64,000 nucleotides of DNA from Halisarca cf. caerulea (taxonomy: Eukaryota; Porifera; Demospongiae; Chondrillida; Halisarcidae): the NCBI GenBank assembly GCA_963170055.1, contig CAUJGJ010000001.1, positions 2,118,501 to 2,182,500 of the forward strand. The letters are read 5' to 3'. The position numbers were made by a program, and so were the translations under genes. This document shows, one piece after another, positions 17,644 to 45,064 of the stretch. Within the stretch, counting starts at the first letter, position 1. The number at the start of each line of letters is the position of its first letter. The notes under the pieces were generated by a model. It did no database searches. It was given only the letters and a program-made list of their open reading frames with translations, and was not told where the DNA came from.

Positions 17644-20600
17644 TACACACACACCTACACACACATATACACACAAGGACTCACTGTAAGATTGTATCCA
17701 GCAACCACCGAATGCCACCTTTTATCTCCCAGATCTCGGTCCGTGAACTCCAAATCTGACCTCTCCCCTCCTCTGGACACAGTGTACTTCAGGATACCCT
17801 GTAACAGCTCCAGCACTATGAAGTCTGAAAACTCATCATCATACCGACCGTTCAAGAAAATCAGCCCATATTTCGATTCCGTTGCAAACTCCAAGTAGAT
17901 GGTATCGTTGAGGGGAGCATTAAGACTGGGAAAGAATGAGTAGCCTCTCAACTGAAAACTGCCCAGGGCTACTTCACATCTTGAACCAAAATAGCCTGAT
18001 TTGCAGTTGCAGGCAAAACCAGGTTTTTGTCTAATACAAGTGCCACTGTTTGAGCAAGGGTTGGGTGAGCAGAAGTCAACACACTTGGCGCTACCACTGA
18101 GATCTATGATACAGTCTTCAGAGCTGCCACAACTCTGAGTGTCACAAGCACTGGGAGCGGGTGCGGTGACACTGTTGTACAAATCCACTTCACAGTCCTT
18201 TCCGGAGTACCCTTCTGCACACACGCACGTGTAGCTGGAGCCACTAATTTCAGGTTGGCACGTACCGCCATACATGCACGGATTGACAGAACAGTCTCTT
18301 ACTCCACTGCTGGGTATCTTCTTGGTACACTGGATGCCTGAAAAACCTGGTACGCAGGTGCAAGTAGTGCCAGCGTGGCTCGCAGTACATGTGCTGTTAT
18401 TTTCACATCCGTAGAAGGTACAAATTGACGAAGGATCCACCTTCCTGATCTGACATTTCGGTCCAACAAAGTCCGGGGTGCACGCACAGGCCAGCCCACC
18501 CTCGACCACAGCACACGAGGCATCGTTCAAACAGCCAAGGTTGGAACAAGACGTCTGATTTACCACACAAATTCCACGTTCGAGGTAGCTCCCGGGAGGG
18601 CACTCACAAGTAGCATGTCCTTCACTTGGTAGACTGACACACACCATTGGCGACATACAGGGAGAGTATGCACAATAGTCCACAGTCCCCTGTTCACAGC
18701 TACGACCACTGGATCCCTGCAGACATGTACACTTGTAATCCCACACGGGGGCCGAGGTGACGATTGTGTGTGGTGGAGAGTGGGATACCACTTGTGGGCT
18801 GATTTCCTTCAACACGTTCTCACATATTCCATTCTGTCCACATGGTTCACTGGCACACAGATCAAGCAGCTCAGTTTCCACTCTGATTCCAACTTCTTGA
18901 GATGAGAATGAGTCCCTGTTTGAATGTACAAGATGACGCAACAGCTCCTGGCTGACAAAAGATCCCCCACCTGTCTCCAAAGAGAAAGACACATCAACAA
19001 GTTCTTCTGCATCAATCACATCTTGTACGCTGACAATGAATGGTTGTAATGATGATTGCACGACAGAACGGAAAACATCAACTGAAGAGAAAGGTGAGAG
19101 TTTGTTCTGGAGGAAGTTTTGAGCAGTAATTTGTGAGATTCGAATGATGATGCTGTTTTCCGCCACGCTCGGGCTTATCTCACTCACATGCACAGCCACG
19201 GTGCACCGAGCCCAGTTCCTATTCTCTGTAACGTTGACGGTGAAGCTATATCTGCCAACCGGTGGGTTATCGGGTGCTTGAATGGATCCATTGCCAAGGT
19301 GGAGGGAGAAGGGCCCCATGTTATTACCAGCCTCACTCAGGAGAGAGTACATATGATTGTTCACAATGTCGGGGTCGTTTGCATTCACCTGACCAACTAT
19401 GATGGAAGAAAAATGGCCGCCTGTAAGATAGATGAAAACGTCAGCATGTCCTGGCTTGGGAACATTGTCGTTGACATCCCCAATGGTGACAGTAACTGTG
19501 GTGGTCCCAGTTTGAGAAGGACTTCCACCATCATCAGCAGTGATGATCAAACGATACAGCGCCACTTCCTCTCGATCGAAGGTAGCCATTGTTTCGAACA
19601 CACCCGTGCGCTCATCTAGACGAAAACGGTTACTATAAGTGGACCTTTGGAGTCTGTAGGTGATGTCAGATGGTTCAGTAACTGTATCACGATCAGTAGC
19701 ACTCACAACTCCAAGGAATGACGGGGGTTGAACGTTCTCTGTCACAAAGTACTCCGCACTAGGAGGACTAAAGATTGGGACTTCATCGTTCACATCTTGT
19801 ACATACACTGTTACAGTTGCAGTGTCTCTCAGCATCTCGTCTCCTTCGTTGTAGGCCCAGATTCTAACCCTGTGTTGGGTCTCCAACTCATAGTCCAATT
19901 CTGCTGCTAGTGTCAACACTCCAGTTTCAGAGTTGACTTGAAACTGTGGGGCTCTGTCTTCTTCAGCTATTTCGTACAACACGGGAGGACCATTGACATC
20001 AATGTCCGTTGCGTGTACTTGTTCTACCATTGACCCGACTGGAGTACCCTCTGGAAAAAAACGAACAAAGGTTTTCTGCCAGAAAACTGGCCTATTGTCA
20101 TTCTCATCCAAAATTTGAATGAGTACGGTTGCAGATCCTTCCATAGACACTAAGCCTCCATCGCGAGCGATTACTGTGAGGTTGAAAAACTGCTCTGTCT
20201 CGAAATCTAACTCTTTTCGCACTGTGATGTTCCCCGATTGAGTGTCCATTGCAAAGTTCTCCCTATTGTTGCCAGACTTGAGTTCGTAGGATATCTGTGC
20301 ATTGGCTCCACTGTCCGCATCTGTGGCTCTGACTGTCAGAACAAGAAAGTTGATATCCACTGATTCGCTCACAGTGGTTGAATAGACAGAGTTGTCAAAA
20401 ACGGGTGGGTGGTCGTTATCATCAGAAACTGTCACATGTACAATACCAGTAGACGACAGAGAAGGGCTGCCCAAGTCACTAGCTCTCACGTAAAGAGTAT
20501 AAAACTCCACTTCTTCACGATTCAGTCTGTCTGTTGTGACGATGAGACCAGATTGTAGCCCAATTTGGAATGGGAGTTGGTTCACGTTGACATTGGTCCT

Positions 20601-23600
20601 GCTACCTGCATCCCCACCAACAATCTCGTACTGCAGCAGACCACCAACACCCGAATCAGTGTCCCTTGCTGACACCTTCACAACGTTCATACCAGCAGCC
20701 CTGTTTTCCAATACACTGCCTTGCAACGTTGCGTTGTCAAACATCGGATAAACATCGTTCTTGTCCACAATCTGGACAGAAACGGGAGCCAGTGTTTCAT
20801 GTACTCCATCACTCGCAGCCACCTGGACGACAAGCTGTTGTGCGGACTCATAGTCCGGAACATAACTGAGAAATACTTCTCCACTGGTGGAATTTATGGT
20901 AAAGTTGTCTCGGCTTGGGCCAGATAAGAGGAAGAATGATACATTTCCAACGAGGTCAACATCAGTGGCAAACACCCTGAGAAGGGGAGAAGAAATGTCT
21001 GAATTCTCTTCAACTGCTGTTGTGTAAATGGTGGCATTGAATGCAGGTGGTTCGTCATTCACATCGGACACACTGATCTGGAGTGAGGTGGAAGCTCGAT
21101 TGGCACCATCGTAACCATCCACTGTTAGGTTGTAAAATGCTTGTCTCTCGTGGTCCAACATGGCCGCCACTCTGACAGCACCTGTCAGTGCATTGATGGC
21201 AAAATCAGAAGACCCGTGAAGCGAATACGTGATCTGAGCATTCTCGTCCAGGTCGTCATCACTTGCCAACACAACTACAACCTCATCATCCACACTAGCC
21301 TCCTCCCTCACACTTGCATGGTACACACTAGCATTGAATACAGGAGGGTTATCATTGAGGTCTGTAATGTCAATGAAAACGATCACTCTTTCTAGACTTG
21401 TCATTGGCGGATTACCTCGATCAGTGGCACTCACAAAAAATTGAAAGCGTGACTGTTCCCCTTCTCTATTCAGCATAACGGTGGTCCTTATTTCTCCGTT
21501 CATGTTAACAGTAAAAGGTACATCATCACCTCCTACAATCATGTAATCAATGGTGCCGTTTTCCCCAAGGTCATTGTCTGTTGCTGTAACATAATTGAGA
21601 CCAAAACTATCTGAGCCCCTTCTAACCACCGTTGTTCCAGGAGGTTGGTTCTCCAACACCTGTCCCGAATAGATCACCTGATCAAAGAACGGTCTCTCGT
21701 CGTTTATGTCCAAAATGGTAACAGTCACAGTAACCAGTGTTCTCAACATTTGACCACTTCCAATAACTGCAAGAGCCTGAACATTAAAATTCAGTACTTC
21801 TTGCATTTCGCGATCGATATCACCGGCCACTAAAATCTCACCAGTGGTCATTGAAATTGAAAAATACATCCTAACCACTGAGGTAACAATACTATAAAAT
21901 ATCATTGTATTGGAACCAGGGATAGCTGCAGTGACTGTTCCCACTGGTTCTCCCATACTACTTCCCTCGATCATTGTAAACGAGTAACTGCTCTGTGTGA
22001 ATGAAGGTGGACTGTCGTCAGCATCAATGATTTCAATCGTGTAGCTCACTGTGATGCTTCGAGGTGGGTTCCCTCCGTCAGCTATCATAACGTTGAACAT
22101 GTAGTGAGGAATAGATTCAAAGTTGAGAGACGCCCGCAGAATCAACTCTCCTGAATTCCCACCAAAGTAAAACGGAAGAGCGGTAGAGCTCAGCCCACTT
22201 GGGATTATTATACTGCCAATGGTGTAAGTGAGTGTACCATTCTCGCCATCATCTGGATCGGTTGCCTCAATCGTTGATACTGTCAAGCCAGTTTCAAGAT
22301 CTTCTGAAATTTGTGGGTTTCTACCACGTATGAAAGATGGGTCGTTGTCATTCAAATCCAACACTTTGACCCTCACAACAGTGTTACTGGTGAACACACC
22401 ATCGCTGACAAAGACATTGAACTCAAAACTGGGATTTTCTTCACGATCAATGGAGGTTGAAGTTGTTGATATCCAACCTGTATTTGTCTCCACTTCAAAA
22501 GGATTCCGATTGTTTTCTTCCAAGTGGTAAGTGAGAGCAGCTCCGCCGCGATCCACATCTGTTGCTGAAACTTGCAGGATACGCACAGGGGATCCTGCAT
22601 TTTCAGACACACTGCCGTTGTAGAGAGAAAATGTGAACATTGGGGGATTGTCATTGATGTCCAGGACTGTGATTCGTAGTGTAGCTGTGCTGCTGAATGT
22701 TCCATCACTGGCAATCACAGTCAGGTTGTAGGCGGGTTCTGTGAGGGCATTCTCAGCCAACACTACAAGTCTAACTTCACCAGTCTGTGCGTCTATGGCA
22801 AACAGACCTTCCCCCTCCTCTTCAGATAGCTTGTAACTGATGGAGTCAGCATCACGATCGTTAGCAGAAACTGAGCCAACAATACTTCCATTGTGAGCTG
22901 TCTCTTGGACTGATAGTTCCAGTAGGTTTGATGAAAACTGTGGTGCATTGTCGTTGACGTTGGTGACGGAGAGACGTACGGTGGCCGTACCTGTCAGCTG
23001 GGGTGAACCCCCGTCCACTGCCACGACAGGGATCTCATAGATGGGGGAGGATTCGTAGTCAGTTTCTCCCTTCACAGAGACAAGTCCGCTGTCTGGGTCA
23101 ATTTCAAAAGTGTCACTGAATGTAAAACCGGCCGCAAATCTGTAGGTTATTTCAGAATTTGGGGAATTTTGTGAGTCGGCATCAGTAGCCATGACAGTTG
23201 TGACTGGAGTGCCAGGATCTGCATCCTCAGGAAGCACTTTGGGGTAAATTCTCGAAGAGAACACAGGGGTGTGGTCATTTTCATCCAAGATGGAGACAAT
23301 GAGTGTGGTCAGGCTGAATGAAGACTGGTCCAAGGTTGGATCTGAGACCTTCAGCTCTAGTCTGTACGTTGATTCATCCTCATAGTCCAACGGCCGTGCT
23401 ACTGTCACCTCACCATTCAAGAAGTCAACAGAGAACTGAATCTGGTCATTTCCAGACTCAATGGTGTACGTTGGAAATCCCGATGCGGAGCGTACGGTAG
23501 CTTTTACTGTGGTAACCAAATCCCCCACCTCTGCCAGTTCACTTACATTTGCTCTGTAAAGTGTCTTCTCAAAACTGGGAGCTCTGGAGTCAACAAGGAA

Positions 23601-26600
23601 TATAGAAACAATTGTAGTGTTGGTAAGAGCTTCCGGTAGACCACGATCTCTAGCCTCCACAGTGAGGTTAATGTTTCTTCCTGTTTGCAGACTGGAGAGA
23701 GGCAGCTGAACAGACAGCTCTCCTGTGATTTCATCGAGTGAGAAGAATCCAAGTCCACCACTGGTGATGTGGTATGTTATCTGACTCCCTTCAAACAAAT
23801 CTGGGTCCCTCGCGCTCACACGCAACACCGGGTCACTAACATTGGCATCGTTGGAGATGTATGCCCTGTAAGGCGTGTTAGTGAAGTAAGGATGGTTGTC
23901 ATTTACATCCTCAACTACAACTTCTACCGACAGATCAGCTATGAGGGAGCCTTCACTGCGATGAGTGGCCTGTATTGCTAGACCGTGTCTGTCAGCAGTC
24001 TCCCGATCCAATGCCGTCTGTAAACTGATATTTCCAGAGTTTTCATCAACTGCAAAAACTCCATCATTGTTTGATATCAAGTGGAATCGAATGTCTGAGT
24101 CAGAGTACCCAGTGTGAATGAGGGTGGGAGTAAGGATGACGGTATTTGTCTCGGCATTTTCAGCCAAGGAGAGCGAAAACTCAGACGGGTCGAATCTAAA
24201 GTTGAGAATAGGACAGTTTCTAACATTGATGTACACATCTGCTGTAGATGAAAGTAAGGGAGTTCCCCTATCCGAGGCAGACACTTGAAGGTGATAGTGC
24301 GAGTGGAGGCGGTAAGGATTGCTTAGCGTGATATCCCCACTAGTGGAGTCGACGTTAAATGTGGTGGTTCCGTTACCGCCAACCAGGCTGAAACCCACGT
24401 CTCCTCCACTACCGCTGTCAGTGTCAGTAGCAGACACATGTGTGACTGAGGTGCCAGATCTAGCAGGAGTCCACAAGATGGCCGAATAACTTTGAGAACT
24501 GAAGACAGGATTTTCATCATTTATCTCCTCCACTGATAGATGGATGTGGTGTATTCCCATCTGAGGGACAGTTCCATCATCGGTGACAGCAATCACAAAG
24601 TCCTGATAACTGAATCCATGTTCGACGTCCAGACTCCCCATCCGCAGTGATCCTCTGCCATTGGCATCAATCTGCAGGTTTCTAGAAGCAAGTGGATCCA
24701 AAATGGCTACTGAGTTTACAACATCGTTTGGGTCATCATCGTTGTCTGTCAGCTGTAGGGTGAACAGGGTGGTGGACAGGGATGAGGATTCGGGGACCGA
24801 CAGTTCAACTTGTCCACTGCTGACAGCAGGACCTGGAGCGTTGTCGTTTACATCGGAAATGGTAACACTGAAACTGACTGAACTTGATGCACCAAAACCG
24901 ACAGCGTAGTGAGCCGTGGCTGTTAGAGTGTACGTAGCATTGGATTCGCGGTCCAACGTTGCACTTGTACGAACAACCCCACTCCGGCTGTCAGCCCAGA
25001 AGTAACCACTCCCACCTGTGAGAGTGTAGAATACAGGAAGAACGTTGTCTGCCTCTACAGAAGTGACAAGTGTGTTGGATGGAAGATTCTCAACAACGCT
25101 GACCCCACTCGGCTGTGAGATGAGGGGAGGTGAGGTGAAATCACTCAGCACTTGTACTGTTACCACAGCTGAGGTACTCATAGTGGGAAGTCCTTCGTCA
25201 GTTGCAACCACGGTTATCTGGTGGAGAGGGTTAGCAGAGAAGCTAAGTTGTTCACTGAGCGAGAGCACACCTGTTGAAGCATTGATGCTAAACACACTAC
25301 TCGGTGGTTGAAGGGAGTACAAGACTTGTCCATTTGTTCCACTGTCAGGATCAGAGGCAGACAGAGCCAGGACTGGTGTTTCAACCGAGGTAGTCTCGTT
25401 CACAGTCACTCGGTAGGAGGACTTCGAGAAGATGGGACGATTGTCATTGATATCACTCACTTTGATTGTGACTCTGCAGTAGGACAGCAAAGAGGGACTC
25501 CCCCCATCTTCACCGGAAATGGTGAGTGTGTGTTTGGATGCAGTCTCTCTATCAAGAGGTTCATTGATCATGACTACACCACTTGCTGAAATGCTGAAAA
25601 CACCCTCTGGTCCAGTTGAATCAATTATCGCCATGGTAACATTACCATTAACTCCCACATCCCTGTCAGATACTGCAACACAACACACACTAGTCATGAT
25701 CCCTTCAATCACAGCAAATGTATAATGAGATAGGGAAAACTTGGGAGAATTGTCATTTACATCCGTTACACTGACCACAAGCTCAAGAGTGTCGGAAGAG
25801 GTGCCGTCCCAAGCTTCAATTCGCAGTGTGTACTCTGTGGTTACTTCACGATCGAGGTGTCCTGCCACGTAGATCGCTCCTGTGTTGGGGTGTATAGTAA
25901 AGTGCTGTTGACTGGTGGTGGAGGGTGAAGATGAGTCCAGGATCCTGTACATGAGGTGAGCACTGTTGCCATCGGTTGCTCTTGAGGTGTACACCACTTC
26001 AGTACCAACCTGTGCACTTTCAGCCACACTGATGGATTCAGGAGACGACGAAAACGCTGGCGCAACGGACGGCCCCGTGGGAGACACAATTGTGATTTGC
26101 ACTGTTCCTGTCCTATCCAACCGTCCCAGACCTTGATCAGACGCTACAATCAGAACAGAATGAGGGCCTGCTGAGGATGAACTCAAGGAGGAGGAGACAG
26201 AGACCTCTCCAGTTGACGAGACACTGAACATTCCACTTGCTCCCGGAGAAGATTCAGAGTAACTCACTTTGCCATTGCTGACAGGTTCATCAAGATCTCG
26301 TGCAAGGACACGCAATACAGAAACAGTTGGTCGCACTTCGTAGAAGTTGTTGAATACTTGAATGGAATATGTGTTTGAGGGCAAGAAAGATGGACGGTGG
26401 TCATTGCTGTCCAAAATCGTAATGGAAACTAAAGAGTGGGAACTGAAATGTGAATTGGACGCAGTGAGTTCAAGTTGATACAAATCATCACTTTCTCTGT
26501 CCACGGAACCAGCAACAGTGATGATACCAGTGGTGGCATTGACTGCAAACACGCTGCCACTGTTCCCACGTACGATGGAAAATCTCACACCGGAATCAAC

Positions 26601-29600
26601 AACATCACCAGTTATAGACACAAAGCCCACATAAGTACCAGCAGGAACCCCTTCGCGAACTGAGTAGTGGTAGATTGGGGCTGTGAAGTAGACAGGTATG
26701 GTTGACATTGGGACATTGACCAGCAGTTGCATGTTGGACAACTGAGGAGAGAGCGAGCTGTCTTCAGCCTCAATGTGGAGTGTCAGCGATGGAAGCAAAG
26801 ATGCTGACAGGTTGCTCGAAACAGTTAGAATGCCCGACACACTGTTGATGTCAAAATACACCACTCCACTACCTCCCTGCAGGGAATACACGACTCTCCC
26901 GTCTCTTTCTAAATCTGAATCCCTAGCAGTAAATCTGGCCACAAACATCCCAGCGTGACTGTCACCAGCGACAGAGGCAGCGAGTGTGCTGTTGGGAAGA
27001 AAGAGTGGAGGACTTGCGTTCTCGTCCACGTCTGCCACCTCGATGGTGACAGTTGCACGATCACTATGTGATGGTGTTTGTGTGTTAGTTGCCACCACTA
27101 CAAAAGAGTGAGATTGAGCGGATTCATAGTCCAATTGCCGTTTCAAATACAAAAATCCAGAATGAGAATGAATACCAAAGATGTTCAGATTCCCAGATTC
27201 AATGGAGTAAGTGCAAGCAGCATTCACTCCAACGTCTGCATCATCAGCCCGTACAATGTAGAATGGGATGTTTAGTGGCTGGTCTTCCATAAGCCTCAAG
27301 GTATATGAACTCTCTAAATCTGGCGAATGATCGTTTTCATCCTCAACGGTAATTTGCACAACAGCTGTGGAAGTCCACCGTGGCAGACCAGCATCCGATG
27401 CCAGCACTTGCAGACTGTACATTGAAACTGTTTCTCTATCGAGTAGATCAGCAGTTTGGATCATTCCAGAGGAGGATATTACAAAATCGCTTGCACCCTT
27501 TCCACGTAAGGCATACGTGATCGTGTTCAAATCTCTGTCTGCATCAGATGCTTCAATTTGGATCACATCTGTTTCCACAGCTGCAGACTCTCTTGCAGTT
27601 GCAAAGTAGACTTGCTGAGAAAACAACGGTGGATTATCATTGGCATCGGTAATGTGAACAGTCAGTTGACATGGTGTTGAAGATTGACTCAGATCGACAA
27701 GATCAACTGCTACCAAAGAGATACGCAGGACAGAGTCAACGTCTTCGTAATCCACTTCCTTCAAAAGCTTCAGTTGCCCTGTTTCCCAGTTAAGGGAGAA
27801 CAATCCATCTTCATTTCCAGAAGTGATCTTGTAGCCAAGATAGGCATTCACCCCCTCATCCTTGTCTGCTCCAGAGACAGTGTGTACAATTGCTCCGGGA
27901 GCAGTGGATTCGATGATACGCAGTAAACCAACTTTTGAGGGGAATCCCGGGGGACTGTCGTTGACGTCTTGAACATCAATGGTGACTGTGGTTCTTCCTG
28001 TAAGGAACCCCAAGTCTGTGGCTACAACTGTCAACACATACTGTGACACACTCTCTCTGTCCAGTGAAGTTGATTCCGAGATATAAATGTCTCCAGTTTG
28101 GGAGTCAATGGTGAAGTGTTGTTGTGCGTTTCCAGACACAAAACTGTAAGTTATCACGTCATTCTCATCAGGGTCGTTTGCTCGAACAGTCACCACGTGT
28201 GCCAGAGGAGGAGCATTTTCACTGACAACAGCCGTGTAGGTGGAAGAACGAAAAGAAGGATTCTCGTTTGCATTCGTGACACTAATGCTTAATGAGGTGG
28301 TGGCATATCTTGTATTAGGACTGGTGTCGTATATGAGGAGTTGAAGTAAAAATGTCCGTCTCGAGCCTTCATAGTTCAGTGACTTGTCAACCATTACATG
28401 TCCGCTGTCAGATATGCTAAATTGGCCGCCAATGTTACCCCTCAAGAAACAGTACTTCAGTTTACCATGTGATCCACTATCACCATCAATAGTGTTGCTG
28501 GATGGCAGAGATACAATAGTATGACGAACATTGGCGTCCTCGGACACAGTCTGTGCTTGTAGGGAAGAGAGAAGTGGGGCAGTATTGCTGAGTGCCAGCA
28601 CCGTGACTGTCACAACAGTTGTCGATGTGAGGGCTGTGCTGAGGCTGTCGGTTGCAACAACGCCAACAGAGAATTCAGTGGACGATTGAGAAGAAAGCAG
28701 TTGTGATAGCTTTAATATTCCCACACTCTCATCCACACTGAACAAGCTTGAGGGAGACTGTAAAGAGTACCTTGTGACTGCGTTAGAACCACTGTCTTTG
28801 TCCACTGCTTGCAGTCGAATGACAGAGCTCCCAATGGGAGCATTATTGTACATCTCAACACTGTACAGTGTACTGGGAAACAGAGGTGCATGGTTGTTGG
28901 TGTCCAGTATCCTCACAGTCATCGCACATCGGAAGAAGGAGGAAGATCCTTGAAAGACGGTCAAAGTGAGATACAATGCGTCCCTTTGTTCCAGGTTCAA
29001 CAGAGAAGCGAATCCGCTGTTCACATCCAAGTTGTTACCATTGATGACAAACACACTTGAATGTAAAGATTGTTCTATCTGATATGATAGGGACTCTCCA
29101 CCTCGTGTCGAATCCAACTGGACCACACTCACACGCGAGTTGTGGGCTTCTTGCACAGTACCACTGTAGTGGCATACATAACTGCCCTGAGGCTGGGTGA
29201 GTGTTGCAGACCCACTGGCAGTGGAAGGGGTGTACACTGTGATCTCGATTGTCTGTTGGGACGAATACGATGCAAAACCACTGATACTGGCATTCACTGT
29301 GAATGTGTACGAAGATGGAACTGCACTGAGTGACTGTGCGAGTGACAGAGTACCTCTTGTGTCGTGGAGATTGAACACAGAAGGCAGGTCTTCGGAGGAG
29401 TACACGATGGAGTTAGTCGAGGCAATTGCATTGTCTAGTGTTGCCGATACGGTCATGACAGTTGAACCCGTTTGAAGGTTCTGAGGAATAGTACGCATTG
29501 CTTTGCGGAGGGAAAACTTTGGAGGAGACAGAGTGGGTGCAGTAATTGTTACAACAACATCAGCTCGAAGGTTTCTTGAGCTCCGTCTGTCCTGTACATG

Positions 29601-32198
29601 TACACGGAATGTGTAAACTACACCTCTAGAGAGGGTACCAACTGCAACCAAGTCACCTGTGTTTGGATCCAGGTAGAGAACAGTTGGGAAGCTCCCACTT
29701 GTGGTGTAGGTGACCAGACCATTGTACCCCACGTCATTGGTTGCAACTGCTAGCGATGCAACTGTGCTGCCCAATTTGCTGTTGGAGGGCACATTAAGAC
29801 GGATAGTACCAGTGGGGTAGGAGATAACGGTGTCATCCTGATCCTGAACAATGATGTCAAGAGTGACATTGTTACTGCTGTGTAGTCCGTCACTTGCCGA
29901 GAGCAAGAGGCTGTAGTGATCGATGATCTCTCGGTCCAGTCTTGCTGCATTCACTGTCGATACCACTCCGGTTTCGGTGTTGATGGTAAAATGGCCTCTC
30001 TCGTTCCCACCAACAATGCGGTATACAATTTGTGTGTTCTCGTCCACATCTCCGTCACTTGCTGACAACTGAACATCGCAGCTCTGTTGATCTGTCGTAC
30101 CTTCCCGCAGGAAACACGGGCACTGGATCTCATCCATGACAGGGGCTAGATCGTTGGCACCAGTGATGTTAATTTGCAAATGAGACTCAGAATGTAAGCG
30201 AAATGGAATTCCGTTGTCAGTTGCTCGGACTGTGACGTAAACAAAATGAAACCTGTCGTAGTCAAGAGCTCCGTCAACCTTGGGATACAAACGTCCTGTG
30301 AACCCATCAATCTGCACTACAGATGGTGATGCGTGTGTGATGGAATAGGTGACATGTCCACCACACCCACTGTCCGGATCGCTGGCTGCAAATGTGTAGA
30401 TTACTTCATCGGATCGTAATGTCTCTGGTACAGAGACAGATTCAGCTGGCTGGTACGTTGTAAGAGGAATACTTGACAATGGGGATGGGTGCTGAAAAGT
30501 CGGTTGATGGAAATTGTACCCTTTAACTTCAACATGAACCGTGACTGTTGCATTGTGCCTGTTAGCACCCTGCCCCATGGCTGTGAGAGAGAGAACATGG
30601 CTTCCAATTGATCCTTTTGGAAGGGTCTGTTTTGTCTGCAACGCACCAGACACACTACTTGCTTCAAAGTACAAGGAGTTTGATAGAGAAAAGAGAGCTT
30701 TTGCATTTTGACCGATATCCCTGTCCGTCACAATCACACTCAAGACATCAACTCCCTCATCAGTGCCCTCGTAAACAGTCACGTAGTATATGGATTGATC
30801 AAAAACTGGTGCATTGTCATCCGTGTCATTCAGAGTAACAAGAAAATCGGTAGAAGTTGTGAAAACCGGGTTTTGACCATCCTTCACTTCAACAATGACT
30901 CTCACGCCATAGTCGTACACCTCTCGGTCCAAATCGCCAGCAACACGCAACTCGTAAACATGACTAAGTTCTGATTCTGAAACAAGATTAGTAGAAAAAA
31001 GCTGAGATGCATATCCCACCAGCTCTACAGTCGGTGTATCCACAGTCTGCGTTAACACTGTGAACGTAGTCACAGCTGTACCACTGGTGGCATGCTCCAC
31101 TATTGAAGCTTCACTGGATGTCAGGTTAACTGAAGGGGGACGCATTGTTGCCTGTTTGGTGAAGATTGTGATGGGGAGTTCGGCTGTTTTCGGTGGTTGC
31201 CCCCTATCCCGTGCTACCACAGTGAGGTTAAACCATGAAGCACTCAGTGAGTTCAGATTGCCGCTAACGAGGACATCCCCACTCAGTGGATTTGTGGTGA
31301 AATATGACTGTGGAGTTTTGATGTAGTATTGGAGCTGACTGTTCAAACCACTGTCGGCATCTGTTGCCTGAACTGTCACGAGAACAGCTCCAATAGAGGC
31401 ATTGCTGTAGACAGTGTACTCAGTTTGTAGGGTGGAGAAAGTAGGGTGGTTGTCATTGACGTCTACCATCTGCACTGTGACATTGGCTGTAGTGCGCACA
31501 TTCTCGTACACCGTGTGAACTGCTTCAACTGTGAGCTCATATAAACTGAGTGATTCTGCATCCAACTTCTGTGTGGTTTTCAAAATGGGTATGGAAACAC
31601 AACCATGCGTTTCTGTGACGATGGTGAAATTGCTGTTTGGTGGGGAAAGTTGATATGAGAATACTGAGAATGTGCTTTCAACGGAGCTGGAGGCCATAAG
31701 TCCGGCCAACCCACCAACAAGGGATCCAACACTCTCCTCCTCCACCAACCCGCTCCAGGTTCGACTGGGGAAGGAGGCACTATCCAGCGATGGCAGGACA
31801 TTGAATACGACAGATTCAGCCTTTAAGATGCCACCCATTCTATACTCTACTATGCACTCATAGGAATGAACCACTATGAGGTTTTGTGAAGCAATACAAC
31901 GAGGAGAACCCTGCAATATTTGCGATGGGATTGTCCCTAGAGCTACCAGATTTCCAGAATTAATGGAGAATAAGTCACTGGGGCAGGTTCGAGGGGACAG
32001 CTGTGCCGATGATGTGTAGTTGATAAGATGGCCACTGCCACCCAGGGCTGGTCCTAGCCTCAAGAGGGTGGTGCTTCCAGACACATTTGAAGAGATCAGA
32101 CTGACCGAGATTGATGAGTGAACAGGTCGCAATACACACAACACAGCAAACAGAACTAGAAGTGTCTTGTAGAGAAGAGTTGACGACTGCACTGCCAT
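12987..32198 (-). CDS. Fat-like atypical cadherin, complete
   Basis: Giant single-pass adhesion receptor; Fat cadherins act at the plasma membrane in cell adhesion, planar polarity and growth control, usually binding Dachsous-type cadherins. Exons on the minus strand: 32198-17685, 17464-17337, 16035-15740, 15109-14901, 14582-12987; phases close, giving about 5580 aa. Residues 1-28 form a signal peptide (LLVLFAVLCVLRPVHS). By eye there are about 40 cadherin repeats up to about residue 4330, most ending in DxNDNxP-type calcium sites. Seven EGF-like modules follow (about 4440-4745), then a laminin-G domain split by introns, an EGF module (CSANPCQNEVECVQDGF) and a second laminin-G. The membrane segment (about 5193-5219, IVIIVLAVVGVFLLALILCV) precedes a 360-aa Ser/Thr/Pro-rich tail. 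This order matches Fat4/Fat-like cadherins, which in vertebrates have 34 repeats; 40 would be more. Some repeats (for example 7, 8, 16, 18, 24) lack the canonical DxND linker. Orthology to one Fat subtype is inferred. Confidence 0.93.
15162..15228. repeat. (CA)n microsatellite in Fat-like intron 3
   Basis: CA on the plus strand, hence TG in the sense of the minus-strand gene, about 50 bp upstream of the exon 4 acceptor. Confidence 0.9.
15322..15509. mobile_element. MITE fragment, ACAGTAAAACCTGTGTATA family
   Basis: Starts GTACAGTAAAACCTGTGTAT and ends GACAGATTTCACTATA, approximately inverted. Internal GACCACTCAAGGGACCAAGC resembles the AGACCACTGTAGGC units at 39349-39689. Confidence 0.55.
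16085..16540. mobile_element. 91-bp tandem repeat element, copy 2 (reverse orientation)
   Basis: About four 91-bp units in the opposite orientation to 5165-5495. Bounded by TTGCTTAGTGCATACCTC on the left and TACTAAGCAAGTTCAACCGT on the right. It lies in Fat-like intron 2. Confidence 0.75.
16922..17233. mobile_element. MITE with 54-bp tandem units, second copy
   Basis: Starts TACAGTGAAACCTCTGCAAT, has three 54-bp units, and ends AGAGGTTTCACTGTACT. Same family as 3633-4268 and also intronic (Fat-like intron 2). Confidence 0.75.
17608..17675. repeat. (CA)n array after Fat-like exon 1 donor
   Basis: Sense-strand TG tract beginning about ten bases after the donor of the 14.5-kb exon (donor at 17684). 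Confidence 0.9.
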
Positions 32199-32514
32199 AT
32201 CACATCCTAAATAGGCGAGAACATGGGAGCTTTTGCTATGAAATGTTCACAACACAGATTACTACTAGTGACTGTACACAGTGTGTGTTGACCAGGAACA
32301 GAATGACCCAACTTAACACGGATAAAGAACAAGAGATGAAAGATATCAAGAGCTGAAGATTTCTGTACATGCACCCCACAATAGCAAGTCAAGTACTGTT
32401 CTCATGCACAGAAGTATGAGGCTGAGAACATCGTACGTATGTAATGTACCTACTTTACGATTATACTGCATGTACAGTACATGTCTAATGAGAGCTGCAT
32501 ATTCGTGTACGTAT

Positions 32515-33777: not shown

Positions 33778-34071
33778 AGCATGGGTGTATACCATAGACA
33801 CAAGCTACACACATGCCCATACGTACGTATGTATGTACGTACGTACAGTGTAGAACTGACTTTCAAGGGTGACTTATGTAGCAAGGTATCTGCGTACATG
33901 CATGCACATACGCATAGATATGGACAGATTGAGGGTACATACTATCCATGGGTATTGCTAACCCAGGTATGTACATACATACGTATGTACTGTATGTACA
34001 TACGTACGTACATATGGGGTGCCAAATGGGTCAAAAGTATGGGAGCACATTATAGTCTACTTACTGAGTAG

Positions 34072-34275
34072 GGCAGGTCTACTTGTCAAGTAAAACAGGT
34101 CTACTTGTTAAGTGTGACAGGTCTACTTACTAAGTAGGACAGGTCTACTTACTAAGTAGGACAGGTGTACTTGCTAAGCAGGACAGGTGTACTTGCTAAG
34201 TAGGACAGGTCTACTTGCTAAGTAGGACAGGTCTACTTACTAAGTAGGACAGGTGTACTTGCTAAGTATATAGGA
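34072..34275 (+). repeat. Left subterminal array, 22-bp units
   Basis: About nine units of AGGTCTACTTACTAAGTAGGAC with variants (GTGTAC for GTCTAC; TTGCTAAGC). Each holds the dyad AAGTAG-N7-CTACTT. Reverse complement of the right array. Confidence 0.92.
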
Positions 34276-34378
34276 CATGCAGGTTTACTCATCAAAATGT
34301 CACAATAATGTTATCAAATAAATTGTCAATTCACACATCATTGTGCAAATTCATAATCAATAATCTTGGCCAATTGTA

Positions 34379-34397
34379 CCATGTGGTTCTGAGCATG
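34379..34397 (+). promoter_or_regulatory. Upstream motif shared by both transposon genes (left copy)
   Basis: CCATGTGGTTCTGAGCATG, 27 bp before the HECT start codon. An inverted copy with 16 of 19 matches lies at 38278-38296, 42 bp before the integrase start. Possible common promoter or transposase-binding site (inference). Confidence 0.45.
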
Positions 34398-34424
34398 TGA
34401 TTAGAAGTTGCCACATTCAACCAC

Positions 34425-36645
34425 ATGGTAACTTCAGAAATGGCTGAAGGCAGGTCTGGAGAGCTAAGAGAGCTTGCTAGTTCCTTGGTTTCAGAGCTCA
34501 GAGCTGAATTTCACAGATCCAGGGACAGTCAACAGGCACATTCATCTACTAGTACAAGCAGCACAGTGAGACAAGAAACTAGCACCAGTGGAAAGAGAAC
34601 CTATCGTGCACCATCACTGTTTGCCAATTTGAAGAAAAGCAAGAAAAGTAAGGTTGAAAAGGCTCTTACACGTGATTTCATGCTCTTGCCGCCAGATTGC
34701 AAAGAGGGGAATGGTCGAGTTAGAATTCCTAGAGGTGGCTACAGAAACCAGCTCATTGGAGCCCAGCTCATTGGAAAGGTACAATTAAGACCTTCAATGA
34801 CAGACTTGGAGGTAAGGAGAGAAATATGCACAGTCTTTGCTACTCCAATGGGAATCAGCACCAAGGCTTTTGATGAACTTGATTCTGATGATGCAGGCTT
34901 CTTCGAGTTCGATTATCTACAAAGTTCAGGATCTGGCACCTGCTCCTTGTGTATTTCATCAGTATCCAAGTCATTCTCTTGGACTGGGCAAGAAGTTGCT
35001 CGTCTTAGCAAGCAAGGGAAAATGATCTACCTTCTTGCTCGCAAACCTCTCAATCTGCCAAAATCCAGTCATTCACCACCATCTTCACCAATTTCAGTGG
35101 ATGATGACAATGATGATGATTCACTGCCAGTAGTTCACCTAAGTAGCCAGCATCAAGCCCAACCTAGTGGATACATCGAAATTCTTGATGATTACCCATC
35201 CCCAATTCCTTCGAATTCATCGGATGATCAAGATTTGCAGGTAGTACTAGAGGAAAGCATGAGGGATGTTAACAGAGTTGAAGAAGCTTTAAGGTAAACA
35301 TTATTATAGTTTTCCAATTTAAATGTATTAATTGATTGTAAATTTAAAGTAGATAATCTATATAAGATATTTAAGTGTGGTTCTTTCCAATTATGTAGCA
35401 GTGATGCTAATATCAAAGATATTCTCGTGGAGCACAAGGCAACCATTGTTGGTACTGATGAGGCAAATAAGTTTCGATTGTATGTACGTAGGCGTCATCT
35501 GTTTGATGATAGCATTAAGGGAATGACCCGGTTCACAGATCCCAGCAAGCCCTTTAGAGTGGTTTTTGTCGGTGAACCATGTGTTGATGAAGGCGGACCA
35601 CGACGTGAATTTTTCAATTTATTTTTGTCTGAGCTGAGCAAGCATGGAGGGCTACTTACAGGTTCACCAGGAAAACGCATGCTACTGCACAATGTAATTG
35701 CATTGCAAAAGGGGGTATTTGTTGCTATTGGGAAATTGATTGCCTTATCACTTATCCATGGAGGTCCAGGGCCTCAATTTTTCACTTCCTGCACCGCCAA
35801 GTATCTTTTAGGGTTGAACGTCACCAAAGAAGATTTGTGTGTGGAGGACATAGCAGACAGCAGCATAGTGACATTGGTTAAGAAAGTAAGTGTACACTAT
35901 TATGATTTTTTTTAACTTATTGGAGCTTACTATACATATAATAAAGAAATAAATTTTTTTTGGGCTATATGTATAAATGGACTTCTATTTACCTGCACAG
36001 ATTAAGAAAGTAGATACAAAGGAACAATGGGCTATCAACATCACTTCCAGTGATGTAGAGATACTAGCTGGTTGCGGAATACCTTTCACAAGGCTTGAGG
36101 ATAAGGAAGTTATGGTACAAGCAATTATAAAGCATTCGTGCATCTTTAGTGTCAAAGCTGAATTGGATCAGATTAGAGAAGGCATGGATCTCCTCAGATT
36201 ACTAGGAATTTTCAAAAGATATCCGAAAGCATTTTTGCCACTCTTTTTGCAATGTGATAAGGTAATCACAGCAGTTTTCATGCAAGATCTGTTTCGGATA
36301 CCTTTTTCACCTATGGGATCTAACATCCGAGAAAGGGAAGAGACCACAAGTTTGCATTGGATACAGTTTCTGAATGATGTCGAGGCGGGGTTATTGTCGG
36401 GCACCACTGAAGGTAACCAATTTGATATCAGCTTAGGAGACATACTCTTCTTTACCACAGGATCCACTCAAGTACCACCAATGGGCTTTGATATTCAGCC
36501 ATCCATTGAGTTCCGATTTGAACAGTTGCCAAGGGCATCTACCTGTGCAAATGTACTAGAACTTCCGCTCATTGATTCCTATGAAGACTTCAAGGACACA
36601 ATGTGCTTTGCCATAAGTAATACTGTTGGCTTTGGATGCATCTAG
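34425..36645 (+). CDS. HECT-domain E3 ubiquitin ligase carried by transposon
   Basis: Predicted HECT E3 ligase: it takes ubiquitin from an E2 onto its own cysteine and passes it to a substrate. Exons 34425-35293, 35399-35885, 36001-36645 give 666 aa with closing phases. HECT runs from about residue 310 to the end: RLYVRRRHLFDD, VVFVGEPCVDEGGPRREFF, ALSLIHGGPGPQFF. Catalytic Cys634 sits in LPRASTCANVLELP, the normal position about 32 residues from the C-terminus, so the enzyme looks intact. The N-terminal 300 residues hold a Ser/Thr-rich segment, a basic cluster (KKSKKSK, residues 70-76), an unrecognised globular part and a ubiquitin-interacting-motif-like stretch (DLQVVLEESM, about 270-279). 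Similar HECT proteins in animals are often annotated 'G2/M phase-specific E3 ligase-like'. The gene is tail-to-tail with the transposase. Its substrate and its role in transposition are unknown. Confidence 0.88.
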
Positions 36646-37080
36646 CAACTTTAGTTATACTAGCGCGCGCGCAACTTTTAGAACTTAATTAATAGTTTAT
36701 GGTTTATTATGTAGATTTAGGCCTTTCTTACATGCCAAGCTTTGCCGATACTTTAAATAACTTTGCTGGTAATTGGAATCATGCATGCACCTTATAGTTT
36801 CACACTTGAGCTGCTATACTTTTGCTTAATATAATAATATTATTATACACTTAGTCTATCAATATGTGTTCTGAATCGTAACGTTACATGTAATTATTGT
36901 AGTCCTTATAGGGTAACTGCAGATAACTGTAAAGGTTACTTCTGTATGTATTTATGATCGAATTGTGTTGAGGCAATATTTTCTCTAAATTGTATATGGC
37001 TACTATCATTGTATACAAATCCAAAATAATACTTGATAGAGATATAATAATATTATAAAGTTGGTATATGCAGTTAATTC
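36646..37080. other. Intergenic space between convergent transposon genes
   Basis: AT-rich, with a short GCGCGCGC run near 36665. Presumably holds both 3' ends; nothing else seen. Confidence 0.6.
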
Positions 37081-38235
37081 TCACAACAGACCGTCTTGTT
37101 GCATAAGCCTATTAACTAGTGTAACTGTTTGAATATAAATGTCAACTCCTTGATTTTGACTATGTGCCTCGGGATCTATGTTGGATCTCAAGTTATCCAG
37201 TGAAGACTGACTCAAAGGCAAATTAAGCTCAGGTACCTCAACATTAGAAGTGGATTCATCATCTGATACTGACTCATCAGGATCTATACCATAAGTATTG
37301 ATATCATCTAATACAGTTTCATCCTCTGTTGTAAGAAGTCCAGCAGTGAAGAGTTGCATAGGAGATGCTCCTTCTGCTGTTGAGAGTCCGTGATGATTCC
37401 AAGCAGCAGTAAATGCCTTCAAACTGTTGTTTATTCTTGGAAGGAAAACATAATGTAAGCAAAATAAATCAGCATCATTGGTCGGATCCAATACTTCCTG
37501 CTGCTCTAGCTCAAGAAAGATTCGAACAAAAACTGTAGTGACAGCAGTGTAAACATCTCTCCATAGGCGCTCAATTCTTGTATTGTGAACACTGGATCCA
37601 GCAATATAAGATCCTCGTTCCTCACCCCTTGTAGCTGACATGTACCTCCAAATTTCTATGTTTTCTCCACCCTTGTCTGACCTTATGCGCGAAGGCACAC
37701 CATACACCTCACATGCTTCAAGGAAAGCTGTGAAGACTGTTGTAGATCTGTTGTTGTTGTTGCATCGTAAGTATGTTATTAAGCGTGAGTATCCATCTAT
37801 TCCACCATGTATAACAAGTCTCCATTTAATCATCTTATGATTTCCATCTACATGCCACAAGCTATTTGGCCCTGGAACACTGTATACGCGCCTGTATATT
37901 GTAGGGTGGCGTTGTTGTGGACTTCGTATGGTGTGTATAGATTGCCTAATCCGTTCACGCTGCACTCTCAATCCTAGGCTAGCAATGTGCCCTCGAATTA
38001 ATACTTCTCCTGCATTAGGGGACTGTGTTAAATACTCTTTTACTACAGTAGCCAAGTCAGCATCAGAAATTACAGAGTAACCTTTCTCCAACCCATTTTC
38101 CTGAGCTCTTCTCTTCAGAGTACTTACAGAACTGCCAAGCAGGGTAGAAATCTGATCCCATGTCATGTTCAGATCCATTAGCAAACTCAACTGATCTATG
38201 TCAATTTCACTTCTTGGTCTCCCACAACTAGCCAT
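37081..38235 (-). CDS. DDE integrase-like transposase
   Basis: Intronless 384-aa gene. Residues about 10-60 form a helix-turn-helix-like region (LSLLMDLNMTWDQISTLLGS, then VSTLKRRAQENGL), likely DNA-binding. An RNase-H-fold integrase core follows: D130 in LWHVDGNHKM, D187 in RIRSDKGGEN and E222 in HNTRIERLWRDV, that is D-56-D-34-E. Flanking family motifs are RLVIHGGIDGYSRLITYLRC and NNNNRSTTVF. The last 80 residues are acidic. Proteins of this HVDGNHK / GYSR / RIERLWRDV type occur in fungi and animals as 'integrase core domain' proteins. It should recognise the inverted ends and move the element. All catalytic residues are present and there is no stop or frameshift, so it may be recently active. 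Confidence 0.9.
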   Translation of the reverse strand: MASCGRPRSEIDIDQLSLLMDLNMTWDQISTLLGSSVSTLKRRAQENGLEKGYSVISDADLATVVKEYLTQSPNAGEVLIRGHIASLGLRVQRERIRQSIHTIRSPQQRHPTIYRRVYSVPGPNSLWHVDGNHKMIKWRLVIHGGIDGYSRLITYLRCNNNNRSTTVFTAFLEACEVYGVPSRIRSDKGGENIEIWRYMSATRGEERGSYIAGSSVHNTRIERLWRDVYTAVTTVFVRIFLELEQQEVLDPTNDADLFCLHYVFLPRINNSLKAFTAAWNHHGLSTAEGASPMQLFTAGLLTTEDETVLDDINTYGIDPDESVSDDESTSNVEVPELNLPLSQSSLDNLRSNIDPEAHSQNQGVDIYIQTVTLVNRLMQQDGLL

Positions 38236-38277
38236 CTCCTGTCACATGTACTATACACATGCAGTTCTATCACTGAG

Positions 38278-38296
38278 CATGCTCAATCCCACATGG
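38278..38296 (-). promoter_or_regulatory. Upstream motif shared by both transposon genes (right copy)
   Basis: On the minus strand CCATGTGGGATTGAGCATG, 42 bp upstream of the integrase start; mirror of 34379-34397. Confidence 0.45.
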
Positions 38297-38360
38297 ACAG
38301 CATGGTTGTTTCTAATTAACAACCTGTAGATTGGTCTGCTCCACTTATTAGGTGTGACAT

Positions 38361-38646
38361 TAAGTAGACCTGTCCTACTTAGTAAGTAGACCTGTCCTAC
38401 TTAGTAAGTAGACCTGTCCTACTTAGTAAGTAGACCTGTCCTACTTAGCAAGTACACCTGTCCTACTTAGCAAGTACACCTGTCCTACTTAGTAAGTAGA
38501 CCTGTCCTACTTAGCAAGTACACCTGTCCTACTTAGCAAGTACACCTGTCCTACTTAGTAAGTAGACCTGTCCTACTTAGTAAGTACACCTGTCCTACTT
38601 AGTAAGTACACCTGTCCTACTTAACAAGTAGACCTGTCTTACTCAG
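38361..38646 (-). repeat. Right subterminal array, 13 units of 22 bp
   Basis: TAAGTAGACCTGTCCTACTT plus AG repeated 13 times without indels (13 x 22 = 286 bp). Units alternate between GTAGACC and GTACACC forms, and the array is inverted relative to the left one. Semi-palindromic units suggest multiple protein-binding sites. Confidence 0.93.
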
Positions 38647-38710
38647 TAAGTTGACTAAAATGTGCTTCCATATTTTTGACCTGTTTGGCACCCCATACGT
38701 ACATACGTAT

Positions 38711-42379: not shown

Positions 42380-43770
42380 GCAGCCTAGGTTAGGTTAGGT
42401 TAGGTAAGCTTATTTTGACAGGGGAAGCCTTTAGCCAAGTGGCTACTACTCTAGGCACCCTGTAATAACACAGTACACAACAGAAAAGGGAGGAAAACCG
42501 TACAAAAAAGAGAATTGAAATATATGTTAATAATAGGGCATGCAATGTCATTCATTTATTAATCAAAAAGAGAGTCAAGAATTCAAAGTTGATGGAAGAC
42601 ATACTAATATAAGAATCATGCAAGTGTGCTCAAATAGTTAAGAGCGGCTTGAGAGAACACTCTGGTGCTGCTGGAGTTACGGATCGAGGACGGAAGGGAC
42701 CGCCACAGTGAGGCTCCTACAAATGAAAATGCATGTTGACCGAAAGATGTGCGAGTTAATGGAAGGGTAGTTAGGTTGTGTGTACGTGTGTTGTGGCAAT
42801 GGGAGGGACGATGGAAGAGAGATGATAAGTATGAAGGTGCTAGTGAATTGTGACATCTGTAGACGAGTTCGGCCAGATGAAGTTTCCGGCGTGTAAGGAG
42901 ACGGGTGAGGCCAAGATCCTCCCAGAGGGCACAGGAAGATGAGAGACGAGGGCGATGAAGAACAAGATGACAGGCATAGTTGAAAAGTGTCTGGAGGCGA
43001 GAGGAATCTTGCTGGGTGCAGTTGTTCCAAACTATGTCACAGTAGTCCACAGAAGGCAAGATGTAAGATTTGAGATACAAGACCAGAAGAGGGCGAGGAA
43101 GAAACCAGGATAGACGTCTTAAGAGATTGATACTGCGAGAAAGCTTGGAAATAATGTGGTTGATGTGATCCGTCCATGTTAATGTGTCATTAATTACTAC
43201 ACCTAGGAGTTTGAATGTATGGACCTGTTCAATCTGTAGTCCAGACAGCGACAGGTTAAGTGGAGGGGGAACAACCCTGGTCCTACAGGAACGAATCAGC
43301 ATACACTTCGTTTTAGAAAGGTTAAGTTGTAGACCATTTTGTACCATCCAAGTGTTGGCTTTTTGCAGACAAGATTGAAGAGCATCATTGAGAAGTTGAT
43401 GGTTGCTACCAGTGAGAAAGATGGTTGTGTCATCTGCAAAGAGGACAGTACAGTCAGGGGGAAGAACAGAGGGAAGGTCGTTTATAAAAACTGAAAAGAG
43501 AGTGGGTCCAAGCACTGAACCTTGAGGGACACCAGAGGATGTGTAGCCAGGAGAGGAGTAGGAGTCTTCTACACGAGTGACTTGACAACGATCAGAGAGA
43601 TAGGAATGAAACCAAGCGAGGGTGGGAGTGTCAAGACCGAGGGACTGGAGCTTTGCGAGGAGGTGAGGATGGTTCACTGTATCGAAGGCTTTGCATGGAG
43701 ACATCAAGAAAGAGGACACCAACATACTGCTTTCGATCAAGTGCGGTGTACCAAGCATTGGTACAGTGAA
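42380..43770 (-). pseudogene. 5'-truncated non-LTR retrotransposon (reverse transcriptase)
   Basis: The minus-strand frame ending at 42616 encodes the RT palm: KAFDTV (motif A, about 43690), GVPQGSVLGPTLF (motif B), LFADDTTIF (motif C) and the thumb/C-terminal region to NYLSTLA. The first RT motifs and any ORF1/endonuclease are absent, as expected of a 5'-truncated copy. Around 43695, just before motif A, the reading frame shifts relative to RT-like sequence upstream, so the copy is broken. The 3' tail ends in a short TTAGG-type repeat (plus strand 42388-42410). CR1/L2-like clade by appearance; not assigned firmly. Confidence 0.85.
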
Positions 43771-43919
43771 GGCTATTGTATTAGGAATGTATTGTGGTGT
43801 AATTCGGAGTGGTTGGTCAAAACGGTGACAATCACAGGCTGCGCACACTCCACTCCTCATCCGGATCCGTGCTGCATTAGTGCCAGTCTCAGTGATATGG
43901 GAGCTCAGTAGGTATATAG

Positions 43920-45064
43920 GACTTTGCTATAAAAAGAGCACTCTTAAAACAAATTTCTACTTATAGTGTAAACATTTTCTCCAGGCATGCTTGGTTTGCT
44001 GTAGTACTGTACATGTATTACTATATCCTGATTAGTCTGGCCTGCTACGACCACTGTCCCCTAGCGCGTACATGGGACGGTCGTAGCAGGCCAGACTATT
44101 GTATCCTGATACTTAAGATCTTCTGATAATGAGAACTGTAATTTGTTGGTCCTACTTTAACTAGGTCCCACAGTACACACAAGGGTGATCTGACATGCTG
44201 ACTATATAGCAAAGATAACAACCTGTGTGTTCTGCATGTATTGCCCCAGTCTACTCCACTTTGTCGATTTCTTCATGTAGTCGACGTCGTACATCCAATA
44301 TACACAGAACGTACAGATAAAAATCAGCTACACAGTACAGTATATTCTAAATGATTACCAATTAGGCTGGAGCTGAACTACATATTCTATATCTTAACCA
44401 CCACTCCCCATAGATAAATTCAGTGGAACCTCTGCATGAATAAAGGACACTTTGGAGTAGTCTCTTTTGTCCTTTGCACAAAGATTATCCTCTTCAGGAG
44501 GTTACAATGTACTGGAAATGTTGGGAGAGAATATTTTGGGACCCCAAGCAAGCTTTATTGTATCTGCTAGCCCCACACCTCTCCTCACATAGGAGCAGGG
44601 AGAAGTACAGGCTATAGCAGCCAGACTAGCAGGTTTATGTACATGTGGCCATGCATAGTAATCATGCCATTGATGGGACATGCACAATACTATACAGCAA
44701 AAAACAGTCAACACGAGGGACCACTTGGTTGATAGTGACTGCTGTAGGCTGGTCAGCGAATTATCAAAGCAATACTATAACGCACCTCAACGTATGTGCA
44801 CCACCTGTCTACAGAGACTGATCACTTGGACCCTTAATGGTTGCCATAATACACAGGCTTCCCTGTATTGTCTACAAAATGCCATTGCCAACTATACTGT
44901 CCATCTGTATGCTCTGTAATCACATAAATACATACCCACAAGTCGAAAGAAACCTACACTGAGCAAAAATCATTGAATTTCAGAAATGACATTGATAAAT
45001 AAACCCTGATCACTACAGTATTGATGTGAATTCTACATACACAGTCAATGATCATGAAGTTCAC
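43920..45064. other. Region downstream of HARS: hairpin and MITE pieces
   Basis: Holds the 44034-44097 hairpin and MITE-like fragments at 44418-44510 and 44715-44880 (GACTGCTGTAGGCTGGTC, related to the 64-bp units). No gene recognised. Confidence 0.5.
44034..44097. repeat. Perfect 19-bp inverted repeat (hairpin)
   Basis: AGTCTGGCCTGCTACGACC at 44034-44052 and its exact reverse complement at 44079-44097. The inner GTCCC/GGGAC can extend the stem. The loop contains CTAGCGCGTACAT. Confidence 0.9.

Follow-up and report, generated by a model that had tools for sequence, protein, structure and literature searches.

A 64,000-nucleotide stretch of the demosponge Halisarca cf. caerulea (hereafter the window; GenBank assembly GCA_963170055.1, contig CAUJGJ010000001.1, positions 2,118,501 to 2,182,500 of the forward strand) contains, at window positions 34013-38697, a DNA transposon in which a HECT-type E3 ubiquitin ligase gene lies convergent with the transposase gene. 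A preliminary description, made from the letters of the window alone, had proposed a complete cut-and-paste element with the ligase as cargo, and many copies elsewhere in the genome support such an element, with the ligase as a regular part of it. That this is a real HECT-carrying transposon is, in our judgement, nearly certain.

Copies of the element across the genome

Within the 194 Mb assembly (454 contigs) the pattern TATGGGGTGCCNTTTG identifies 79 exact ends, compared with 0 for the reversed control. The window element's own ends do not fit this pattern, and it was added by hand to the set of elements with both ends present. Among 26 elements with both ends, 17 are flanked by an exact 6 bp target-site duplication, three by one of 7 bp (identical flanks in two of the three) and six by no exact duplication, whereas mismatched flank partners, used as a control, gave duplications in 0 of 650. 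One more copy (C30:18871-24509) is flanked on each side by AAAATG. Copies with the same ends, different flanks and duplications, for which the preliminary description had recommended searching this genome, are thus present, their duplications being mostly 6 bp long.

Gene content was scored in 29 elements with both ends, the window element included, using all 50 HECT loci of the genome but 45 typed transposase loci. Each of the 16 elements of at least 4.6 kb contains both HECT and transposase matches, and none of the 13 shorter ones (0.27-3.0 kb) contains a HECT match; a recheck with the remaining and further transposase matches added one remnant, in the short element C150:1963311-1965236. Ten of the 16 full-length elements have an exact 6-bp duplication, one a 7-bp duplication and four no exact one (one of these four shows a single mismatch), and the last, which at 9.5 kb possibly joins the ends of two copies, lay outside the duplication test. 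The preliminary description had taken boundaries that exclude the HECT gene as the sign of a chance neighbourhood; no full-length copy with both ends has such boundaries, and HECT-less copies are represented by the 13 shorter elements. Two loci, L040 and L041, are 99.9% identical over 3075 bp and lie on different contigs, with different flanks and their own duplications. Because such near-identical copies occupy different sites, each with its own duplication, both genes have moved jointly and fairly recently.

Pairing, co-inheritance and selection

Genome-wide, 60 HECT matches fall into 50 loci and 109 transposase matches into 82 loci. Thirty-nine of the 50 HECT loci are convergent with a transposase within 5 kb (38 scored by script, plus one mis-scored where two transposases had been merged), against 0.2 expected at random, and one other stands in tandem with a transposase. 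The two genes are therefore found together and are not the chance neighbours that the preliminary description had allowed they might be. Transposases of the families that keep a HECT gene are mostly 39-50% identical to that of the window element. In a tree of 48 of the 82 transposase loci, HECT-bearing rows cluster (5 changes versus a shuffled mean of 15.6), and 25 of 28 HECT-labelled rows fall in one branch together with the window element and three unlabelled rows (Shimodaira-Hasegawa-like approximate likelihood ratio test 90, quick tree); the label of L143 rests on a tandem rather than a convergent neighbour. The three unlabelled rows of this branch (L055, L056, L060) represent short elements, 1.9-2.1 kb in length, in which both ends are present.

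Trees of the two genes are largely concordant (Mantel r 0.81, a value reached by none of 9999 permutations, for 19 of the 39 pairs, those with both loci fetched). One lineage (C3:1517284 and C412:8219051) holds a HECT gene from another branch, and exchange of HECT between transposase lineages is supported on both trees (approximately unbiased (AU) test, p 6.7e-6 and 0.003), in a comparison that left out two pairs with shortened HECT and used groups named after the trees were seen. The DDE residues are kept in 19 of 19 transposases, and the catalytic cysteine is present in all 18 HECT sequences that reach its position, of 19 read.

Pooled over comparisons picked as non-redundant (five for HECT, four for the transposase), the HECT gene shows 71 changes in 577 synonymous sites and 66 in 2009 non-synonymous sites (ratio of non-synonymous to synonymous changes per site, pN/pS, 0.27; p 7e-15), and the transposase gene shows 83 in 957 and 82 in 3369 (pN/pS 0.28). 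The HECT gene is kept intact by selection about as strictly as the transposase, and its function is maintained in the lineage, if not in every copy. We hold with high confidence that it is a selected part of the element.

Limits and termini of the window element

Alignments in five groups of close copies end at TATGGGG or at most 3 bases from it, and an end matching TATGGGG[CT]G occurs, in the expected orientation, upstream of the transposase in 23 of 30 fetched transposase loci; no such end was found in six of the 30, and in L054 it is present in the wrong orientation only. Because the alignments of the copies stop at TATGGGG and these ends recur in 23 of 30 loci, the limits of the window element are set at 34013-38697, flanked by a 6-bp duplication, CGTACA. 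The unit first outlined at 34014..38696 therefore stands, with its boundaries shifted by one base on each side. The duplication occupies 34007..34012 on the left and 38698..38703 on the right, its length of 6 bp being set by the other copies. It sits in an ACGT-rich tract and would for that reason be weak evidence alone, and the other copies back the 6 bp. The 8-bp duplication originally reported, ACGTACAT, is CGTACA plus one base of the terminal TA on each side.

The left terminal inverted repeat (34013..34070, + strand) starts with TATGGGGTGCC, and the right one (38640..38697, - strand) ends with GGCACCCCATA. Inverted termini had been reported as 57 bp long; they are present, and are identical at 52 of their first 58 positions, with the form TATGG..CCATA. 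Arrays of a 22-bp unit follow, as previously noted: 9.7 copies at 34055..34268 (+ strand) and 13.4 copies at 38361..38655 (- strand). Transposase-side ends were also checked in 20 of the 24 loci that have an end (from L037-L066), and 19 of them, all except L042, carry tandem arrays of 8-28 copies of a 19-22-bp unit. The unit is family-specific, and several units are partly palindromic. Since each unit spans about two helical turns, its length suggests that the units may be loading sites for the transposase.

The two genes

The transposase gene (37081..38235, - strand) is a single exon with one intact frame of 384 amino acids and a stop, and matches PF24764 (rva_4) with an E-value of 1.9e-84. 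It has a helical N-terminus followed by an RNase H-like core with D130, D187 and E222, which are invariant across 33 aligned transposase proteins, so that the earlier claim of an integrase-fold transposase with this triad is borne out. In the AlphaFold2 model (predicted local distance difference test, pLDDT, 84.5) helices extend to residue 103, with the RNase H-like core beyond, and in the PDB the model is matched best by retroviral intasomes, IstA and TnsB (E about 1e-5 to 4e-5). At the sequence level, IS481 (4.7e-9) and IS3 (7.6e-6) are the closest named families in NCBIfam, both below the curated cut-offs of the models. A separate observation concerns four near-identical copies (L061, L062, L063, L065) of a 499-amino-acid PF24764 frame with a longer N-terminus, for which no TATGGGG[CT]G end was found in 4.2 kb and no HECT was found nearby; these make up a lineage of their own, whose ends or cargo may differ.

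The HECT gene (34425..36645, + strand) encodes 666 amino acids and requires two GT-AG introns. Its three exons, 34425-35293, 35399-35885 and 36001-36645, have predicted splice sites, and this model was picked by eye from 16 open combinations. The preliminary description had seen two uninterrupted convergent genes, which is correct for their convergence and for the transposase and incorrect for the interrupted HECT gene. It was also right about a HECT E3 with its catalytic cysteine: the C-terminal exon gives a PF00632 match (6.4e-13), and its alignment with AREL1 extends through Cys634, in the T-C motif of the C-lobe, with the catalytic codon at 36544-36546 (+ strand). A conserved N-terminal domain (residues 78-210, approximately 34656..35054, + strand) recurs in other element families. 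In a model of exon 1 (pLDDT 70.9; predicted template modelling score 0.49) these residues have a beta-grasp-like order of strands and helices, and Foldseek returns weak matches to the USP7 ubiquitin-like domain (best PDB match, E 0.07) and to Ras-association domains, which is suggestive of a beta-grasp-like fold. Named relatives of the HECT protein, compared by protein alone, share a related HECT domain at 24-33% identity and come from fishes and a crinoid, where the annotation reads G2/M phase-specific E3 ubiquitin-protein ligase, with or without '-like'; fishes and a beetle supply further relatives that are unnamed or uncharacterised.

Placement in the IS3EU/GingerRoot superfamily

With high confidence, and by features rather than by a tree with reference proteins, we assign the unit to the IS3EU/GingerRoot superfamily, because its TA..TA ends, 6-bp duplication and IS481/IS3-like core fit the published superfamily. 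The window element and the 26 compared elements, found by a pattern that starts with TA, have TA..TA termini, and the window transposase has an IS3/IS481-like DDE core that lacks the HHCC zinc motif. Transposons of the hAT, MULE and Zisupton superfamilies make 8-bp duplications, and are ruled out by an exact 8-bp duplication in 0 of 26 elements. IS481EU is ruled out by its duplications of about 4, 15 or 25 bp, compared with 6 bp here, and Ginger1 by its N-terminal HHCC zinc domain, missing from the window transposase, which has a single cysteine within residues 1-117 (definitions from the available part of PMC10045372).

As far as that source is available, IS3EU elements have TA..TA termini, are mostly flanked by duplications of 6 bp, cluster with GingerRoot (Kojima and Bao 2023, PMC10045372), and share with the element described here the IS3/IS481-like DDE transposase without an HHCC zinc motif. 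The preliminary description knew of no named superfamily with such a plan; IS3EU/GingerRoot has this kind of ends. The HECT gene and the subterminal arrays are features described here, and the text available for PMC10045372 contains neither HECT nor ubiquitin. IS3EU elements of rust fungi have terminal inverted repeats of over 30 bp that end in TAYGG..CCRTA, together with 6-bp duplications (PMC12730594, available part), and the window repeat, also longer than 30 bp, fits that form as TATGG..CCATA. Rust and truffle elements further resemble the window element in having an accessory gene opposite to the transposase: according to the same partly available text, in all fungal IS3EU elements that bear TET, an alpha-kinase gene is oriented opposite to the transposase and TET/JBP lies between the two. 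The fungal accessories are thus an alpha-kinase and a TET/JBP dioxygenase, with no HECT or ubiquitin in the available part of PMC12730594, whereas here the accessory is a HECT ligase.

The literature searched, 5.39 million papers, contains none that combines IS3EU with HECT, although a Repbase or Dfam entry may already show the combination, and among the matches listed from the broader literature none deals, in its title or abstract, with a HECT gene carried by a DNA transposon. A coelacanth paper returned for 'hect' (PMC4255032) has none in its main text. A fish paper, in the part available, includes a G2E3 match among unclassified repeat candidates (PMC5638112), which is a hint only. A HECT gene within IS3EU may be unreported.

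Relatives outside this genome

The window's own transposase (P0001) and first HECT exon (P0140) recur in the database from another assembly, both listed with a 503,437-base contig. A relative with a transposase 68% identical (P0003) and a first HECT exon 51% identical (P0144) is listed with a 5120-base contig in both cases, and from this equal size we infer that the two share one contig. Altogether 2991 database proteins match the transposase, and the only species named among the 120 matches listed are the sponges Amphimedon queenslandica (P0063) and Ephydatia muelleri (P0085). No confirmed relatives of the HECT/transposase pair were found in viral contigs, and a single-protein scan of genome contigs returned none. 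A profile scan found three contigs (L149-L151), assigned to a Cycloclasticus metagenome-assembled genome from a poecilosclerid sponge, that encode related transposases; none of the three, each only 3.4-4.2 kb long, has a HECT match, and two of the transposases have a long N-terminus that, by eye, is unlike that of the window. Because they encode relatives of the window transposase, these contigs look like host sponge DNA.

Mechanism and alternative explanations

Overall, we consider it probable that the unit is an IS3EU/GingerRoot element in which the HECT gene is a regular second gene with a host-directed accessory function. The ends, the duplications, the joint movement of both genes and the catalytic residues in place are established by the copies described above. 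The transposase would bind the terminal repeats, probably together with the subterminal arrays, and would move the whole unit by DDE chemistry that leaves 6-bp duplications. Purifying selection and the conserved cysteine suggest that the HECT protein is produced in a catalytically competent form and that the element needs it in order to spread. It may act in trans, tagging a host silencing, chromatin or repair protein so that transposition can be expressed or completed, and the short HECT-less elements with proper duplications fit such action. For this host-directed role, to which we give something near an even chance and which we favour over a transposase-directed one, the reasons are that HECT seems to have been exchanged between lineages and that fungal relatives carry other regulatory enzymes similarly placed.

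The HECT protein might instead target the transposase or the transposase-DNA complex, either limiting the level of transposase or marking the stable strand-transfer complex for removal to let repair be completed, which we judge possible and less probable than a host target. The stable pairing and largely matching trees would suit such an enzyme, and the arrays of 8-28 units, present at 19 of the 20 ends checked on the transposase side, could recruit transposase in many copies. There are also precedents in the available part of PMC4411706, where a transposase or its descendant is likewise combined with a domain of ubiquitin-ligase type: the RING domain of RAG1, a transposon-derived recombinase, has ubiquitin-ligase activity, and a RING finger also occurs in two Chapaev transposase subgroups. 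These differ in that the domain is of RING type and fused into the transposase, the superfamily is Transib or Chapaev, and ligase activity is stated for RAG1. An apparent single exchange of HECT between transposase lineages fits a partner-specific enzyme poorly, with the reservation that the groups were named post hoc. Transposons do capture genes, and the HECT gene could then be passive cargo or a captured host gene family with no part in transposition, an idea that gains from the G2/M phase-specific E3 ubiquitin ligase-like annotation of its relatives in fish and other animals and from the 10 of 50 HECT loci without a nearby transposase. We nevertheless find it very improbable, given that HECT is kept in 16 of 16 full-length elements, across families whose transposases are mostly only 39-50% identical to the window's, that its constraint resembles that of the transposase, and that 39 of 50 HECT loci share one orientation relative to the transposase. 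Coincidence of assembly or neighbourhood, with inverted ends that are chance repeats, might be entertained for the window alone, where the duplication lies in an ACGT-rich tract, and is refuted for practical purposes by the 79 exact ends versus 0 in the control, the 17 of 26 exact 6-bp duplications versus 0 of 650, and the 0.2 pairs expected by chance.

Several observations count against a HECT gene that is regular, constrained and host-directed, and against the assignment of the unit, beginning with the reliance of the superfamily placement on features. The short HECT-less elements may have lost HECT after insertion, and are then no proof of action in trans. No transposase lies within 5 kb of 10 of the 50 HECT loci and no HECT was detected within 5 kb of 43 of the 82 transposase loci, HECT-negative labels being dependent on the sensitivity of the HECT search, which may miss some genes. 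One nine-row branch of the transposase tree has no HECT, one eleven-row branch has three, and a single clade of HECT-bearing rows is not supported (AU p 3.8e-4, 48-row tree); since rows without HECT make up all of the first branch and most of the second, and rows with HECT do not form one clade, HECT is not a universal component of the family. Its history is either early gain with loss or multiple gains, or else distant HECT genes were overlooked. Stops occur in the stretch read in two of 19 HECT genes, for which the count covers the C-terminal part only, and in two of 19 transposase genes, and in one of the five HECT comparisons, taken singly, constraint is not significant (p 0.29). The nearest relative of the window element, L008 (C369:8327721-8346800), aligns to window 34241 to 36800 and has about 357 extra bases inside what is HECT exon 2 in the window; its third HECT exon is open and 98% identical to the window's, no transposase was found at the locus, and an end that resembles the right end of the window element is present at a distance of about 16 kb.

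A broader reading joins three proposals: that the position opposite the transposase is a general 'effector slot' of IS3EU, which holds an alpha-kinase in rust fungi and HECT in animals; that the transposon uses HECT as a weapon to counter silencing or repair by the host; and that some animal 'G2E3-like' genes are copies or domesticated remains of HECT cargo. We regard the three jointly as conceivable and, on balance, somewhat doubtful.

Neighbouring sequence

Judged by eye, a single open frame of 4863 amino acids at 17655-32246 of the window (- strand) resembles a giant Fat/protocadherin-type cadherin with EGF and laminin-G parts, and a 436-amino-acid frame at 42616-43926 (- strand) resembles a fragment of the reverse transcriptase of a non-LTR (long terminal repeat) retrotransposon, with an FADDT motif.

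Implications

Accessory enzymes are known in some eukaryotic DNA transposons, such as the TET/JBP dioxygenases of fungi (PMC12730594, available part), and a HECT ligase under selection is undescribed for IS3EU in the literature searched. The many copies with clear ends, together with near-identical insertions, make an excision or integration assay practical. The element offers a testable case of a cut-and-paste transposon that may manipulate the ubiquitin system of its host, and is a possible source of HECT genes that are annotated as ordinary host genes.

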